From an uncultured Gammaproteobacteria bacterium (GTDB taxonomy: Bacteria > Pseudomonadota > Gammaproteobacteria > Ga0077536), in contig CALJHG010000030.1 of the NCBI GenBank assembly GCA_938075585.1, positions 1 through 32,061 on the forward strand: a stretch of DNA of 32,061 nucleotides. The letters are read 5' to 3'. Below the pieces are notes generated by a model. It worked only from the letters and a program-made list of their open reading frames with translations. It did not search any database and had not been told where the DNA came from. The number at the start of each line of letters is the position of its first letter. Within the stretch, counting starts at the first letter, position 1. Below, one piece after another: positions 13,034 to 29,746 of the stretch. The position numbers and the translations under genes were made by a program.

Positions 13034-13230
13034 TTCTTTCCTGCTACGAATATTTTTCAAGGGCCTAGTATCAGTGGTTTCTAGTATGGGGTCTACTGTT
13101 CTGGGCAATATAGCTGACTAGACGATGTGCGACTTATACTGACAAGTCCGTTTAACGCATATATATGTTGACTATTTGTCCTTAAGTAGCAATTATTGGA
13201 TTTAGTGGCATTTTTTTGTATAGAGGGATT

Positions 13231-14127
13231 ATGGACAGATGGACCGAGATACGTACCGCTTACCAGGTCGCCAAATTTGGCACGGTAAGTGCTGCAGCTG
13301 ATAGCTTGGGGATCCACCGAGCTACAGTGATTCGGCATATTGATGCCTTAGAGGCTGAGCTTGGTGGTAAGGTTTTTCATCGTCACGCGCGCGGATATAC
13401 CGTCACAGAAGTTGGTGAAGACTTGATGCGAGTGGCGCAGCGAACGGAAGAGCATTTCGAAGGCTTAGCTGGACGAACTAAGGGCAGGGCTGGGGAAATA
13501 ACCGGGGAGCTAATACTCACCTCACCCAAGGGAATTAGTCCCCTGTTGCTGCCGGTCATACGCTCTTTTCAGCATCTGAATCCTCAAACGAGGGTTAATT
13601 ATCGTACCAGCCCTGAACTCTTCAGGTTGGAATATGGCGAGGCCCATGTAGCAGTAAGAGCTGGACGTAAGCCCACTGATCTGGATAACGTCGTATTACC
13701 CTTTTTATCCATTCGAAGAGCATTGTATGCGCACAAGAATTACTTGCAGTCATTCGACATGAAGATACCTAAAAATAAAAGCGAATATGCGAAACATACT
13801 CTCGTGACGACTGATGGAAATACTTTTGTGCACGATCTTTTCAAGAGTTGGATTTCTGACAATATTCCGGACGAGACTAGACGTTTTGTCAGCACGAGTT
13901 ATCTGATTGGCGAGGAGGCTGTGTACAATGGAATTGGAATAGGATTTTGTCCTACTTTTGTCGCCGCAGAGAAACCTGACCTAGTAATGATCGCTCCTCC
14001 GCGCGAAGAGTGGGATGTGAAGCTTTGGATCTTGTCTCACGGGGATATATTTCGAACTGCAAAAGTTCAAAGCTTTTTAAAGCTTCTCAGGGATGATAAT
14101 TATCTTTCGAGCTTTTCGTTCTCCTAG
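13231..14127 (+). CDS. LysR-family transcriptional regulator
   Basis: N-terminal HTH MDRWTEIRTAYQVAKFGTVSAAADSLGIHRATVIRHIDALEAELGGKVFHRHARGYTVTEVGEDL, followed by a substrate-binding-domain-like region. Divergent from the flavodoxin-like gene. Confidence 0.92.
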   Translation: MDRWTEIRTAYQVAKFGTVSAAADSLGIHRATVIRHIDALEAELGGKVFHRHARGYTVTEVGEDLMRVAQRTEEHFEGLAGRTKGRAGEITGELILTSPKGISPLLLPVIRSFQHLNPQTRVNYRTSPELFRLEYGEAHVAVRAGRKPTDLDNVVLPFLSIRRALYAHKNYLQSFDMKIPKNKSEYAKHTLVTTDGNTFVHDLFKSWISDNIPDETRRFVSTSYLIGEEAVYNGIGIGFCPTFVAAEKPDLVMIAPPREEWDVKLWILSHGDIFRTAKVQSFLKLLRDDNYLSSFSFS

Positions 14128-14655: not shown

Positions 14656-15066
14656 ATGGGGCGTAAAACGGGTGTCCAAGAAAACAGAAGTCATGTGCAA
14701 TCTGATGACTTTATTACTCGAACTCATGTTCTTCCTCTGCTAGTTGACAAAAATAAGCGAGAACAACTTATCGAAGAGCATCGTAAAAATCCAATAGGTT
14801 TGCCAGGGAAGAGAGGGCGAGCAGCAGTTCGCCATAGTGCAGATCTGGCGCGCGTGTTAGATAAATTCCGACGCCAAGGGATGGATGGTAAGTACGTGAG
14901 AGTATGCGTAACTCCGCACACTGGCTATAAGATTGGGATCACTTCGGGAGTACGAGGGGTGCCAGTTAAAATATTAAGCAAGATCTATCCGTCAGAAGAT
15001 GCGTGTGAGCATGCTATTTTCAAGAAGCGCGTAACTGACTTACTTAAGAAATATAAGTGCTTGTAA
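14656..15066 (+). CDS. N,N-dimethylformamidase small (alpha) subunit-like protein
   Basis: MGRKTGVQENRSHVQ...LIEEHRKNPIGLPGKRGRAAVRHSADLARVLDKFRRQGMDGKYVRVCVTPHTGYKIGITSGVRGVPVKILSKIYPSEDACEHAIFKKRVTDLLKKY, directly upstream of the large-subunit gene. The track ORF starts at 14605, but ATG 14656 follows GAAGGG. Confidence 0.65.
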   Translation: MGRKTGVQENRSHVQSDDFITRTHVLPLLVDKNKREQLIEEHRKNPIGLPGKRGRAAVRHSADLARVLDKFRRQGMDGKYVRVCVTPHTGYKIGITSGVRGVPVKILSKIYPSEDACEHAIFKKRVTDLLKKYKCL

Positions 15067-15133
15067 AAAGTTCAATACATGCGAACTAAGTCAAACAATT
15101 TTATCTAAAGCATTTTCAAAGAGGGGAGCTTTA

Positions 15134-17491
15134 ATGTTAAGAATTACAGGTTATAGCGATAAGTACTCGGTCTGTCCCGGCGATCGGCTTAAGTTTTACG
15201 TGAATTCCGAAAAAAAAGAAAGTTATGATGTTGATATTGTAAGACTAATTCATGGAGATACAAATCCTGATGGTCCTGGATTTAAAGAGAAGGTAATTAA
15301 AGCGCCGTGTAACAAAAGCTATGAGGGGAAAAGCCAAAAAATTCATGGTGGTTCTTACGTCTGCGTTCAGCCAGATCATCGAATGGATACCTCAAGTTTT
15401 ACTCTGCAGGCTTTCATTTTTCCGACTACTCCCGATAAAGGGGTTCAGGGTCTGATTACCAAATGGATTGAGCCACAGCAAAGTGGGTTTGGAATGTTCA
15501 TAGATGAAAACGGATGCTTGGCATGTTGGGTAGGAAATGGGAAAGGACAGGTTGCCAAGATCTCTAGCAAAAAGCCACTGATGCGTAAGGTTTGGTATTT
15601 GGCTGCGGTCTCTTATGACGCGAAAACGCGGCGCATAAAGATCATACAAGAGCCTGTGGTCACACCTACTAATGGTGGTCTTGGTCTTTCGATGTTACAT
15701 CCGTCATCACACACGACTGGATCAGTCTCTCAGGTAGTCAAAGTCAAACCGGAACTTAATACTTCACCTTTGTTGATCGCAGCAGCTACTAAACGAATTA
15801 ACTCAGGCCGGTGCGTAAAAGGTGATCATTATAAAGAGGCACTTGAGGAGTTTCCGTTACCAGAGCAAGACTGTGTTTATAACGGTAAGATCGATAGGCC
15901 CCGCTTCTCTAACAAGGCGTTGGACAAACATGAGATCCATACCTTGGCAAGAGGGTTTGAAACGTCTCCCGCAGATCTGCGCGCATCAGTGGTAGCGGCG
16001 TGGGATTTTCATGCGAATATTTCTGATAATATTGCGTCATGTCAAGTTATTGACGTATCTCCTAACAAGCTGAATGGTTTTATCATTAATTTGCCGGTTC
16101 GAGGCATGACGGGCTATAACTGGACCAGTGATGATATTGTGTATCATCATGTGCCGCACGAATACGGGGCTATTCATTTTCATGATGACGATATTGATGA
16201 TGCACGGTGGGAAGAAAGCTTCAGCTATGAAATCCCGAAAAATTTAAAAAGCGGCATCTATGGTGCGCGTTTGCGTATAGGGGGCAAAGAATCGCCAGAG
16301 ACGGAAGATTATGTGCCATTTTTCGTGAGACCTCCGCTCGGTAAAGCGACTGCAAAGGTCTGTTTTATTGTGCCGACTAATTCGTATTTGGCATATTCTA
16401 ACGACAACTTGGCTACCAACTCGGTAGTAGCTGAATTATTGGCTGGTCGTGTCCCTATTATGCAGGCGTCTGACTTATACCTGAATGAACACCGTGAGTA
16501 TGGACTGTCAACGTACTCATGTCACTCTGATGGCAGTGGCGTTTGTTACTCGACACGCCTTCGTCCAATTCTCAATATGAGGCCAAAATATCGTCACTGG
16601 CTTTCACCGTCATTATGGCAGCTTAATGCTGATCTTCACCTGACGGACTGGTTAGAAGAAAAGGGCATTGAGTATGACATTCACACAGATGAAGATTTAG
16701 ACCGCGAAGGAGTTGATTTGTTAAATCGATACCAAGTGGTGTTAACTGGCAGTCATCCTGAGTACTCTTCTGAAAATATGCTAGTAGCCTATGAGTCTTA
16801 CCAGCAGGCTGGTGGACGATGGATGTATATGGGGGCCAACGGATTCTATTGGGTCAGTCAGTACCATCCAAATAATTCAAATATTATTGAAGTCCGAAAA
16901 GGGGAGGCTGGGACTCGTGCGTGGACCGCTAATCCCGGCGAGTACAATAATGCTTTTGACGGTAAGTACGGTGGCATGTGGCGGGCTCGAGGACGCATGC
17001 CGACAAAAGTATGTGGTTTGACATTTACGGCCTACGGTTTCGATGTTTCTACTTTTTATAGAAGGGAGCCGGATTCGAATCGTAAAGAGTGTGCTTGGAT
17101 CTTTAAAGGTATCAAGGATAATGAGATTATTGGTGATTTTGGACTAGTTGGCGGAGGTGCTGCTGGTCTCGAGATCGATCGATATGATTTGGAGTTCGGT
17201 ACACCGCATGAAGCATTTTTACTCGCACGTTCAGAAGGTCATACCGATCTTATGATGCAAGTGAACGAAGAAATACATTTTACAGTCCGCGGGTATTATG
17301 GAGGCGGCGACGAGAATCCGATGGTACGGGCTGATATGATTTATTACAAAACGCCAAATGATGGGGCATTATTTGCTCCTGGTTCGTTAGCTTGGTGTGG
17401 CAGTTTGTCTCATGATAACTACAATAATAATGTTTCAAAACTGACTGAAAATGTGTTGCGAGGGTTTTTAAAGCCCGGTGCTTTACCTTAG
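15134..17491 (+). CDS. N,N-dimethylformamidase large (beta) subunit-like protein
   Basis: 785 aa, AGAGGGGAG RBS. LamG-like N-terminal region (TSSFTLQAFIFPTTPDKGVQGLITKW...LAAVSYD), then SGIYGARLRIGGKESPETEDYVPFFVRPPLGKATAKVCFIVPTNSYLAYSND and VVLTGSHPEYSSENMLVAYESYQQAGGRWMYMGANGFYW. Confidence 0.85.
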   Translation: MLRITGYSDKYSVCPGDRLKFYVNSEKKESYDVDIVRLIHGDTNPDGPGFKEKVIKAPCNKSYEGKSQKIHGGSYVCVQPDHRMDTSSFTLQAFIFPTTPDKGVQGLITKWIEPQQSGFGMFIDENGCLACWVGNGKGQVAKISSKKPLMRKVWYLAAVSYDAKTRRIKIIQEPVVTPTNGGLGLSMLHPSSHTTGSVSQVVKVKPELNTSPLLIAAATKRINSGRCVKGDHYKEALEEFPLPEQDCVYNGKIDRPRFSNKALDKHEIHTLARGFETSPADLRASVVAAWDFHANISDNIASCQVIDVSPNKLNGFIINLPVRGMTGYNWTSDDIVYHHVPHEYGAIHFHDDDIDDARWEESFSYEIPKNLKSGIYGARLRIGGKESPETEDYVPFFVRPPLGKATAKVCFIVPTNSYLAYSNDNLATNSVVAELLAGRVPIMQASDLYLNEHREYGLSTYSCHSDGSGVCYSTRLRPILNMRPKYRHWLSPSLWQLNADLHLTDWLEEKGIEYDIHTDEDLDREGVDLLNRYQVVLTGSHPEYSSENMLVAYESYQQAGGRWMYMGANGFYWVSQYHPNNSNIIEVRKGEAGTRAWTANPGEYNNAFDGKYGGMWRARGRMPTKVCGLTFTAYGFDVSTFYRREPDSNRKECAWIFKGIKDNEIIGDFGLVGGGAAGLEIDRYDLEFGTPHEAFLLARSEGHTDLMMQVNEEIHFTVRGYYGGGDENPMVRADMIYYKTPNDGALFAPGSLAWCGSLSHDNYNNNVSKLTENVLRGFLKPGALP

Positions 17492-17495
17492 ACCT

Positions 17496-17843
17496 ATGAA
17501 GGATCGCAGCTCGCATATGCCATTGATTTCGCCACCGACCGGAAAACATGTCTTGCCAACGCGAAAAGAAGACTTGTCTAGTTTGGAGCAGGCGGTCACT
17601 GGAGGGCTCGACCCTGATAAATTGAGTGACCTGGCAGAGGTTCTGTTTGCGTTTAATAATTATAGAGTCGGGCCCATGAAAGGGTTTTACGTCGTGGTTG
17701 AAATTGAACCAGCAAAGAAATGGTGCGTTGGTCAACTATGCGCGGATCGGTCTAAACCCCTCAAGCTCTTTGACAAAAAGCTTTACAAAACCTCTAAAGG
17801 TGCGCAAAGAGCGGCTGAAAGACTGCGAGTCAGTAATGCGTAG
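17496..17843 (+). CDS. Second small DMFase-alpha-like ORF, apparent paralog of 14656..15066
   Basis: MKDRSSHMPLISPPTG...LSDLAEVLFAFNNYRVGPMKGFYVVVEIEPAKKWCVGQLCADRSKPLKLFDKKLYKTSKGAQRAAERLRVSNA aligns by eye with the upstream small ORF (see findings). Confidence 0.6.
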   Translation: MKDRSSHMPLISPPTGKHVLPTRKEDLSSLEQAVTGGLDPDKLSDLAEVLFAFNNYRVGPMKGFYVVVEIEPAKKWCVGQLCADRSKPLKLFDKKLYKTSKGAQRAAERLRVSNA

Positions 17844-26387: not shown

Positions 26388-26414
26388 AGTATTTCTCGTC
26401 AGGGAGGTAAGTTG

Positions 26415-27827
26415 GTGAGTGATCTTAACACTCGTTTACGAGACCTGCCCTCGATTGATGAATTACTCCGTTCACCAGAGGGTGACGATCTCTGTAGCTT
26501 ATATGGAAGTGACCTTGTCACGGGTCATCTGAGAACAGCTCTAGAAGAAGACCGAAAAGCACGTCTACAAAAAACAAGTAACGAAGCACCGTTTCGCATA
26601 CAAGAATTTCTAAGTAGTGTGAGGCAAAGCCTTGAGATTTTCTTTACAACTGACTTACGGTCGGTATTCAATTTAACTGGTACTGTACTGCACACTAATT
26701 TGGGACGCTCGCCGCTACCTAGCGAGGCAATCGAGGAAATAGCTCGCGTGTCTTCTGGGGCGAGTAATATTGAGTACGACCTCGGGAGTGGTAAGCGAGG
26801 CGACCGTGATAAATTGGTCGAAAGATGGGTTTCCCATCTCACAGGCGCAGAGGCCGCGACGGTTGTTAACAATAATGCTGCCGCAGTACTGCTCGTTTTA
26901 AATACGCTGGCCAGACGAAAGGAAGTCCCAGTATCAAGGGGAGAGTTAGTGGAAATAGGTGGCTCGTTCAGGATCCCCGATGTAATGTCTCGCGCGGGCA
27001 GTAAGTTAGTCGAAGTAGGGACAACTAACCGGACGCATTTGGACGACTTCTCGCAGGTACTTTCAAATAAAACGGGCTTAGTAATGAAGGTCCATACCAG
27101 CAATTATGTTGTTGAAGGGTTTACTTCTGAAGTACTGGACGAACAATTGTCAGAGCTTTGTCGAGCGCATAACGTGCCCTTTGTTAATGACTTAGGAAGC
27201 GGTACGTTACTTGATCTGTCTTCCTACGGGTTACCCAAAGAAGAGACAGTCGCGGAAAGTTTAGCGCGAGGTGCTGATTTGGTTACTTTTAGTGGTGATA
27301 AATTACTAGGCGGACCCCAGTGCGGCATTATCGCGGGGAAAGCAGACCTAATTGCACGAATTAAAAAGAATGCTCTTAAGCGAGCATTGCGGGTTGATAA
27401 GCTTACTATGGCGGCATTGGGTGCGGTGCTTAAGTTATATGTAGATCCAGTCCGGGTTATCCAAAAAGTTCCCACATTAAAGCTACTGACTAGATCGCGC
27501 GCTGATATTCTGGCCGTAGCCAGAAGAATAAGTGGGCCGTTGCAGACAGTATTAGGATCTGATTACTCTGTAGAAGTGGCTGAAATGAAAAGTCAGATAG
27601 GCAGCGGTGCAATGCCTATAGATCTTTTACCCAGTGCAGGTCTGAGGATAGAGCCTAAGAAAAAGAATAGCCGGATGCTCCGAAAAATTATTTCAAGCTT
27701 TAGGCAATTACCCAAGCCAGTAGTTGGGCGGGTAAATGATGATGCGCTTGTCTTTGATCTTCGATGCTTAGAATTGGAGACTGAGTTCTTGCAACAACTA
27801 TCTTTGCTGAAGATTGCTCGAGAGTAG
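26415..27827 (+). CDS. selA: L-seryl-tRNA(Sec) selenium transferase
   Basis: About 470 aa: LPSIDELLRSPEG, FNLTGTVLHTNLGRSPLPSEAIEEIARVSSGASNIEYDLGSGKRGDRD, TFSGDKLLGGPQCGIIAGKADLI (PLP Lys). GTG 26415 (or TTG 26412) after AGGGAGG. Confidence 0.97.
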   Translation: MSDLNTRLRDLPSIDELLRSPEGDDLCSLYGSDLVTGHLRTALEEDRKARLQKTSNEAPFRIQEFLSSVRQSLEIFFTTDLRSVFNLTGTVLHTNLGRSPLPSEAIEEIARVSSGASNIEYDLGSGKRGDRDKLVERWVSHLTGAEAATVVNNNAAAVLLVLNTLARRKEVPVSRGELVEIGGSFRIPDVMSRAGSKLVEVGTTNRTHLDDFSQVLSNKTGLVMKVHTSNYVVEGFTSEVLDEQLSELCRAHNVPFVNDLGSGTLLDLSSYGLPKEETVAESLARGADLVTFSGDKLLGGPQCGIIAGKADLIARIKKNALKRALRVDKLTMAALGAVLKLYVDPVRVIQKVPTLKLLTRSRADILAVARRISGPLQTVLGSDYSVEVAEMKSQIGSGAMPIDLLPSAGLRIEPKKKNSRMLRKIISSFRQLPKPVVGRVNDDALVFDLRCLELETEFLQQLSLLKIARE

Positions 27828-27829
27828 TA

Positions 27830-29746
27830 ATGATTATTGCTACGGCGGGTCATGTGGACCATGGAAAGACTCTGCTTATCAAGGCGTTAACCGGCGTGGA
27901 TACCGATCGGCTTCCGGAAGAAAAAAAACGCGGTCTGACAATTGATTTAGGCTTTGCATATCACGATCTCGGCGACGGTAAGTCAACCGGGTTTATAGAC
28001 GTGCCTGGTCATGAACGTTTTGTAAAAACGATGATCGCCGGTGCAGTAGGTATCGACGCGGTCCTCTTTATCGTAGCTGCCGACGACGGCCCTATGCCTC
28101 AGACGGAAGAACACCTCGCTATTTTAGAATTGCTAGGGATTGAAAAAGGAGTCGTTGCTTTAACAAAGATCGATCGGGTCTCCGAGGAGAGAGTGGAAGA
28201 GGTAAAGGGGCAGTGTGTTTCATTGTTTGAGACCACATGTTTGAAAGGACTACCTGTTATACCCGTGTCTGTCCCTGAAAATATCGGCGTTGAAAAGTTA
28301 AGAATTGAGCTTCTTGGCCTCAGGCATATCTCTTCTCTAAAGAAAGCTGATAATAATTTTAGGATGGCGATTGATCGAAGCTTCACATTAAAGGGTGCTG
28401 GCCAAGTGGTCACTGGAACTATTTTTGATGGACGAGTTGAGGTAGATGATGTCTTGAACCATATTCCAAGTGGGGGAGAACTTAGGGTCCGGTCGTTGCG
28501 TGCGAATAATGAAGATGTCGGCCTAGCCATCGCTGGGCAGCGAGCGGCGCTAAACTTGGTGAGCAGTAAAAAGTTTGCTGCGTCTATGAATCGAGGTGAT
28601 TGGGTAGTCTCGAGTGCCGCGAATTTTGTGGTAAAGCGACTCGATGTCCGAATTCAGGTGCTCGTTAACGAAGGCAAGCCTCTCGCGAATCGAACGCCAG
28701 TGCATTTACACTTAGGCGCAGCCGATGTTACCGGACGCGTCATCACTTTTGACCGTGTCGGAATTTTGCCAGGGAATAATTCATTTGCTCAGTTGATCCT
28801 TGACGAGCCAATTCATGCGATCTGTGGTGACCGATTTGTGTTGAGAGATCAGGCAGCGAGTCGAACCTTTGCAGGTGGGGTTGTCGTCGAGGTATTTGCA
28901 AAGCCTTATAGAGCAAAGTACCGAGACCAACGAATTGCCCAGCTTGATGCAGTCTCGGCGACTTCGATAGAAGCTGCACTGCAATCACTAGTGCATATTA
29001 GTCCGCATGGCGTGGATCTGTCTGAGTTTGCCAAGGCGAATAATCATACGTTAGAGAACTTATTGAAAATAACAATGGCAATTTCTTCGTTGCACATCGT
29101 AGTGGGAGAGTCGCCTTTAGTATTTTCAGCTAAGCAAATTGCAGGGCTTCGAGATCGCCTTATTCAAGCGATGAAGAAAGCGCATAAAGCGGGATTAAAT
29201 AAAGTAGGGTTATCGGAATCGATGATAAAGAATGAGTTTGGTGGCAATATTAGTCTCGAGCTTATCAGGTCGCTACTAGAGTCTGCGGTTGGAGATAATT
29301 TAATAGAGCGTATTGAAGGTTTGTTTCGACTTAAAACGTTCAAAGCGAAGCGTTCTAAGACTGACGAGCTTTTGTGGCAACGTGTTGAGCCGCTTATTGC
29401 GGTGAAAGATTTCAAGGTGCCAGTCGTACATGAGTTACAGTCGTCATTAAATATAGATATGAAGCTGCTGAAGAGTTTTCTTCTACGATCTGCTAAGGAT
29501 GGTTACATAGTACAGATCAGTGAAAGGCGATATTTCGCGACAGATGCCGTGGAGAAACTTAAACAGCTGGTTGTTAAGATGTGTCAGGATGGATCTCTAA
29601 ACGAGTTTACCGTGGCAGATTTCCGAAGTTATTGTGGGATAGGTCGTAATGCGGTCGTTGAAATTCTAGAGTATTTTGATCGCGTCGGTTTTACACGTCG
29701 AGAAGGTTCTTCGAGAAAGATTTTGAAAAAACATCATGGTTTGTAA
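27830..29746 (+). CDS. selB: Selenocysteine-specific elongation factor
   Basis: [44 protein letters not shown]...[46 protein letters not shown], plus C-terminal winged-helix region ([35 protein letters not shown]). Confidence 0.97.

Follow-up and report, generated by a model that had tools for sequence, protein, structure and literature searches.

A dimethylformamidase-family locus with paralogous small-subunit-like genes on both sides of the large-subunit gene

N,N-dimethylformamidase (DMFase) is an iron enzyme that hydrolyses the solvent dimethylformamide (DMF) to dimethylamine and formate. The form from Paracoccus (parDMFase) is an alpha2beta2 enzyme whose large subunit alone is inactive, and its active site belongs to the few known iron sites built from two tyrosines and one carboxylate (PMC7686228). 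The small subunit of DMFase is needed for activity and its origin is unknown (PMC7686228). Here we consider a locus that raises the question of whether such an enzyme can have a third subunit. It lies on a 32,061-nt stretch of DNA (positions 1 to 32,061 of contig CALJHG010000030.1, assembly GCA_938075585.1, forward strand) from an uncultured marine Gammaproteobacteria bacterium (Ga0077536); this whole stretch is referred to below as the window. A gene for a DMFase-like large subunit is preceded by one short open reading frame (ORF), small1, and followed by another, small2 (Table 1).

Table 1. Features of the three-gene locus, in window coordinates
Feature	Position	Strand	Basis
LysR-type regulator, upstream neighbour of the three-gene unit	13216..14127	+	PF03466, PF00126
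small1, DmfA1-type small (alpha) subunit	14656..15066	+	ATG to stop, 136 aa
Large (beta) DMFase-family subunit	15134..17491	+	ATG to TAG, 785 aa
Insert in the pentraxin-like region, residues 230-246	15821..15871	+	alignment of large subunits
Y421 codon, corresponding to Fe ligand Y399 of parDMFase	16394..16396	+	6lvb_A alignment; role from PMC7686228
Y461 codon, corresponding to Fe ligand Y440 of parDMFase	16514..16516	+	6lvb_A alignment; role from PMC7686228
H541-P-E543, corresponding to catalytic H519 and Fe ligand E521	16754..16762	+	6lvb_A alignment; role from PMC7686228
small2, arm-less small1 paralogue	17496..17843	+	ATG to TAG, 115 aa

The small1 and large genes are 67 nt apart, and only 4 nt lie between the stop codon of the large gene and the most likely start of small2; an alternative in-frame GTG at 17478 would make small2 overlap the large gene. 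A scan for promoters and terminators returned nothing exceeding shuffle expectation. Elsewhere the window carries genes for an amidase-signature enzyme (PF01425; 240-1529) and for a relative of Asp/Glu racemase or arylmalonate decarboxylase (1848-2606). ORFs at 26412-29746 read by eye as SelA and SelB, which suggests that the host may use selenocysteine.

The large subunit was readily placed. In a search against solved structures its residues 3-782 match the Paracoccus DMFase chain 6lvb_A (E 8.5e-187), and its domains, PF13385 (E 1.6e-11) and PF20254 DMFA2_C (E 2.5e-93), give the DMFase-family build of a pentraxin-like/LamG stretch joined to a DMFA2_C catalytic domain. Alignment with 6lvb_A retains both tyrosine ligands, the carboxylate ligand and the catalytic histidine, so that the two-tyrosine, one-carboxylate iron site is present in full; N547 and F693 of 6LVB are likewise kept, as N569 and F716. 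Moreover, Y421, Y461, E543 and H541 are all invariant columns in an alignment with the paralogues from the same genome. Judging from these conserved ligands, the large subunit would bind a mononuclear Fe(III) on Y421, Y461 and E543, with H541 nearby, and would hydrolyse a small amide with a substituted nitrogen, releasing an amine and a carboxylic acid.

The upstream protein is a DMFase small subunit. On its own small1 matches the parDMFase small subunit 6lvb_B weakly (phmmer E 0.021), while its family profile, which includes DmfA1 of Paracoccus plasmid pAMI2, reaches 6lvb_B with E 1.4e-26. A small1 hidden Markov model (HMM) built without Paracoccus sequences still finds the annotated pAMI2 DmfA1 (E 9e-20), establishing homology of small1 to 6lvb_B and DmfA1. 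By contrast, small2 found no match in Pfam, NCBIfam or the PDB either as a single sequence or as a family profile, and its profile gave no direct match to 6lvb_B in the PDB search. Because small2 is tied to DmfA1 through small1 only, we describe it as belonging to a paralogous family rather than as a DmfA1; it is the first described member of an unnamed family. A Pfam family is also lacking for small1, and both small proteins are annotated as hypothetical.

A link between the two small proteins had been proposed by eye from an ungapped alignment over 34 positions and from a DLA-VL--F pattern common to both; the alignment is real, with 11 of 34 positions identical by hand count, and so is the shared pattern, provided that a 3-residue gap is admitted. 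BLASTP of small1 against small2 gave 29.6 bits (E 3e-6, as a single comparison), and their Smith-Waterman score of 67 was not equalled by any of 2000 shuffles (mean 26.6, sd 4.5). Aligning the two families with hhalign returned a probability of 96.9% (E 1.7e-10) over 74 columns. Together these three tests rule out a chance likeness between the small ORFs. When the HMMs were run against all six-frame ORFs of 116 loci, each recovered members of the other family and no third ORF, and the small2 profile also finds the small1-type proteins of Paracoccus pAMI5 and Halalkalicoccus. The original prediction had named unrelatedness in a profile search as grounds for its rejection, and the profiles instead show kinship. 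The resemblance is clear in some pairs only: at a paralogous locus of the same genome, on contig C3, the two small proteins have no pairwise similarity and are visibly related only through their families. The columns invariant in small2 are N, G, P, V, Q, D, P and A, with no invariant Cys or His, and an EHAIF.KR motif that is conserved in small1 has been lost.

Is small2 a genuine component of the locus? Relatives were examined as the nearest 80 of 532 loci found in GTDB species genomes. Both small genes occur in 77 of these, the other three ending at contig edges, and the holders of the three-gene unit include SAR11/Pelagibacteraceae, Pseudothioglobus, Thioglobus-like bacteria, other alphaproteobacteria and gammaproteobacteria. 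The predicted small-large-small order prevails (69/80) without being universal, since eight loci read large-small2-small1; even there all three genes have stayed together despite the rearrangement. Among 58 whole genomes around that of the window, 24 contain small2. Comparison of coordinates places each of the 43 strong matches no more than about 80 nt from a large gene; the weaker matches to the small2 profile proved to be small1 genes, apart from a single short fragment. A sample of 399 genomes spread evenly over the phylum yielded matches only in the window's own genome and to one small1-type gene adjoining a large gene, from which we conclude that the small2 family is restricted. At 68 of 101 large-small2 junctions the stop and start codons share 1 or 4 nt; the 101 include some loci twice owing to the overlap of two collections. 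The median pN/pS is 0.11 for small2 and 0.10 for small1, from pairs that are not independent, and small2 is under purifying selection, with the same constraint as small1. Conservation and pN/pS show that the ORF after the large gene is maintained at the protein level, and rule out that it is not a real gene. The picture of a DMFase large subunit flanked by two paralogous small ORFs holds up: both are conserved and under selection, and the unit is syntenic across a broad clade. A search of the relatives for gene fusions that might reveal contact found none, the open frames around small2 spanning at most 256 aa.

The history of the unit was followed in trees. A tree of 33 large subunits groups those from three-gene loci, with two rows from contig edges, in a single clade (100/99) that excludes the two-gene ones; contig-edge loci aside, the second small gene is present throughout that clade. 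The tree is unrooted, and some long outgroup branches and a pAMI2 row trimmed to 508 aa leave the branching order among the two-gene DMFases unsure. All small2 proteins form one clade (100/100), and the small1 proteins of three-gene loci form another (96/98). The window's genome holds two further DMFase loci. That on contig C3 repeats the small1-large-small2 order and represents, with Aminobacter plasmid copies, a subtype that branches separately in the large, small1 and small2 trees alike; this repetition indicates that the third gene has long been kept with its partners. The other (L005 2635-5287; G000:C3:29025-31274) has small1 and large only, with a short small subunit of about 108 aa and an antisense gene next to it. 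At one further locus (L016 3491-10158) complete units of both subtypes stand in tandem, as small1-large-small2-small1-large-small2. From the trees, the duplication may have occurred at the base of the three-gene clade and been followed by rapid divergence; alternatively it may be older, the two-gene lines having lost the copy. One orthologue of the large gene, 88% identical (L009, near 5789; G004:C33), has an in-frame TGA at the codon for Trp597. Selenocysteine was rejected here because throughout the family this position is an invariant Trp; the gene is intact in other relatives, and the paralogues from the window's genome all have the Trp. More probably the gene is broken, or the TGA is an error of sequencing or assembly.

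Predicted structures point to what small2 has kept and lost. The AlphaFold model of small2 is confident (pLDDT 88.9, pTM 0.75) and consists of a helix (40-53), three strands (59-71, 75-83 and 89-97) and a second helix (100-113). In small1, modelled as part of a larger prediction, helices at 12-31, 33-45 and 63-73 are followed by strands at 81-87 and 91-96 and a helix at 115-133; the element lists of the two models therefore give the same core order. An N-terminal helical arm is missing from small2, in alignment and model alike, and is present in small1 as two extra helices, which in the model correspond to the arm described in 6LVB. In parDMFase the N-terminal helix of the small subunit is wedged between a pair of large subunits, making contact with domain II (PMC7686228). 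Foldseek matched the small2 model to nothing in the PDB at E <= 0.001, and 6lvb_B was not among the best 50 matches. At one relative's locus (L018) the three genes happen to share a frame, and their read-through translation could therefore be folded as a single chain. The result (pLDDT 66.6, pTM 0.48) had a catalytic domain that was itself poorly folded and just 7 alignment rows over small2, as rows for small2 alone had fallen onto small1 in the joint alignment. Among large subunits, the insert at residues 230-246 is present in 90% or more of those from three-gene loci and in no more than one third of the two-gene ones, and a second insert in the pentraxin-like region, residues 181-185, is common to the former and missing in most of the latter. 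We regard both as candidates, no more, for elements on which small2 might dock.

Taken together, these results lead us to favour, with a probability of roughly 0.72, the reading that the three genes encode one DMFase-family amidohydrolase with a third, paralogous subunit. As the third gene is a distant copy of the small-subunit gene, the large subunit is likely to work with two kinds of small partner rather than one. We suggest that small2 arose by duplication of small1, keeping a helix-strand-strand-helix core and losing the arm and the EHAIF.KR motif. It would be translated from the same message in matched dose by translational coupling, and would take a second place on each large subunit to give a small1-large-small2 protomer, where it may be required for stability, substrate entry or specificity. 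Against this reading we count that operon neighbours can act at other steps, that 6lvb_B did not appear among the best 50 Foldseek matches of the small2 model, and that PF11927 (see below) is missing from the window's genome.

The strongest competitor, although improbable, makes small2 an assembly factor that loads iron, helps the large subunit to fold or delivers small1, and stays outside the finished enzyme. A small, tightly coupled protein that strictly co-occurs with the large gene would suit this role, as would the absence of the arm by which small1 is anchored at the dimer interface, and two-gene DMFases are active without small2 (PMC7686228). However, small2 is a paralogue of a structural subunit and not of a known chaperone, it has no invariant Cys or His with which to handle a metal, and its distribution tracks one large-subunit clade, as a subunit's would. 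Somewhat less probable again is that small2 exchanges with small1 on some of the large subunits, in a mixed small1-small2-large2 assembly or as two isoenzymes, and so switches substrate range or stability. The homology and the shared order of core elements would allow such an exchange, and many loci encode both small proteins on one transcript; yet small2 is without the arm that in 6LVB makes the contacts between large subunits (PMC7686228) and without the motif conserved in small1, and the matched tight coupling of the two suggests that both are needed at once. It is very improbable that small2 lies next to an ordinary two-subunit DMFase by chance or as an unrelated gene, for although two-subunit relatives exist, one of them in the same genome, and the C3 pair shows no pairwise similarity, both small genes recur in nearly all of the nearest loci across alpha- and gammaproteobacteria, every strong small2 match in the 58 genomes adjoins a large gene, and small2 is under purifying selection and a profile homologue of small1.

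As to substrates, parDMFase prefers N-methylformamide over DMF by catalytic efficiency (PMC7686228, Table 1). In P. aminophilus the pAMI2 gene pair is needed for DMF use and the related pAMI5 pair is not linked to it (PMC4543880), which counsels caution in deducing a substrate from homology. The window's genome encodes a gamma-glutamylmethylamide synthetase (TIGR03105, 654 bits, above cut-off), consistent with methylamine use. PF11927, which we take to be the dimethylamine demethylase family, was not found in that genome, so that the section of a DMF pathway dealing with dimethylamine is not evident there. The three-gene unit has a flotillin gene (PF15975) beside it in SAR11, in Thioglobus and on an Aminobacter plasmid (L028 267-2255, L046 1226-3955 and L118 5727-7484). 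In the window's own genome no flotillin gene was found, and flotillin was rejected as a partner there. In Thioglobus a rhodopsin gene is present as well, and the SAR11 and Thioglobus surroundings resemble the flotillin-rhodopsin (FAR) cluster of PMC10308929. A tentative and rather doubtful extension is that ocean bacteria, SAR11 among them, possess a three-component iron amidohydrolase in which an arm-less small2, seated at a new site, adapts the enzyme to an N-methylated amide of natural origin and so feeds methylamine metabolism.

Looking forward, such an enzyme, if real, would constitute an unrecognised marine route of organic nitrogen and C1 use. A clade in which a duplicated small subunit has been kept as a second component also amounts to a natural experiment in the role of the small subunit. 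For annotation, two proteins called hypothetical, small1 and small2, can now be placed by family. The flotillin-rhodopsin cluster of SAR11 and Pseudothioglobus carries the three-gene form and not the textbook two-gene form, so that expressing the SAR11 or Pseudothioglobus enzymes from two genes may yield inactive or incomplete protein.

The closest characterised system is Paracoccus DMFase (parDMFase, PDB 6LVB-6LVE; DmfA1/DmfA2; plasmid pAMI2 of P. aminophilus). Its large subunit aligns end to end with that of the window, at about 42% identity for the pAMI2 protein, with every active-site residue kept, and in both cases a homologous small-subunit gene lies directly upstream of the large one. 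Unlike the window, pAMI2 has two genes and one small subunit, with no small2 homologue beside dmfA1-dmfA2, and its large subunit would lack the 181-185 and 230-246 inserts, as judged on the other two-gene relatives with the pAMI2 row left out. N-acetyl-(R)-beta-phenylalanine acylase (8huy, 8i59, 8i5a) is more distant, sharing a homologous C-terminal catalytic region (E 2.6e-125). In the open-access DMFase papers examined, two subunits are described throughout and no three-gene form was found; within that scope the proposed three-subunit form would be a variant of the DMFase family for which we found no published description. A DMFase gene has been noted in the SAR11 FAR cluster, and the passages of PMC10308929 examined name a single DMFase, with no mention there of a small-large-small unit or of paralogous small proteins; its reference genome, AG-390-L03, is the source of one of our loci (L063), which has small1-large-small2. 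The DMFase small subunit of Halalkalicoccus jeotgali (L119 2413-2955) is annotated 'inner-membrane translocator', a label that is probably wrong, and the 'inner membrane translocator' named in PMC10308929 for the FAR cluster may reflect the same error. In Aminobacter niigataensis, plasmids pcAMD1 (strain MD1) and p1 (strain DMFA1, a name that hints at DMF degradation) carry recognisable small1, large and small2 genes, the small ones annotated as hypothetical proteins only. Plasmid p1 has a flotillin-domain gene directly upstream of the unit and an ABC transporter downstream, extending the flotillin link of the FAR cluster to a terrestrial plasmid with no rhodopsin gene in the stretch examined. 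The Aminobacter plasmid large subunit is 54% identical to that of the window and belongs to the sister subtype, that of the C3 paralogue.
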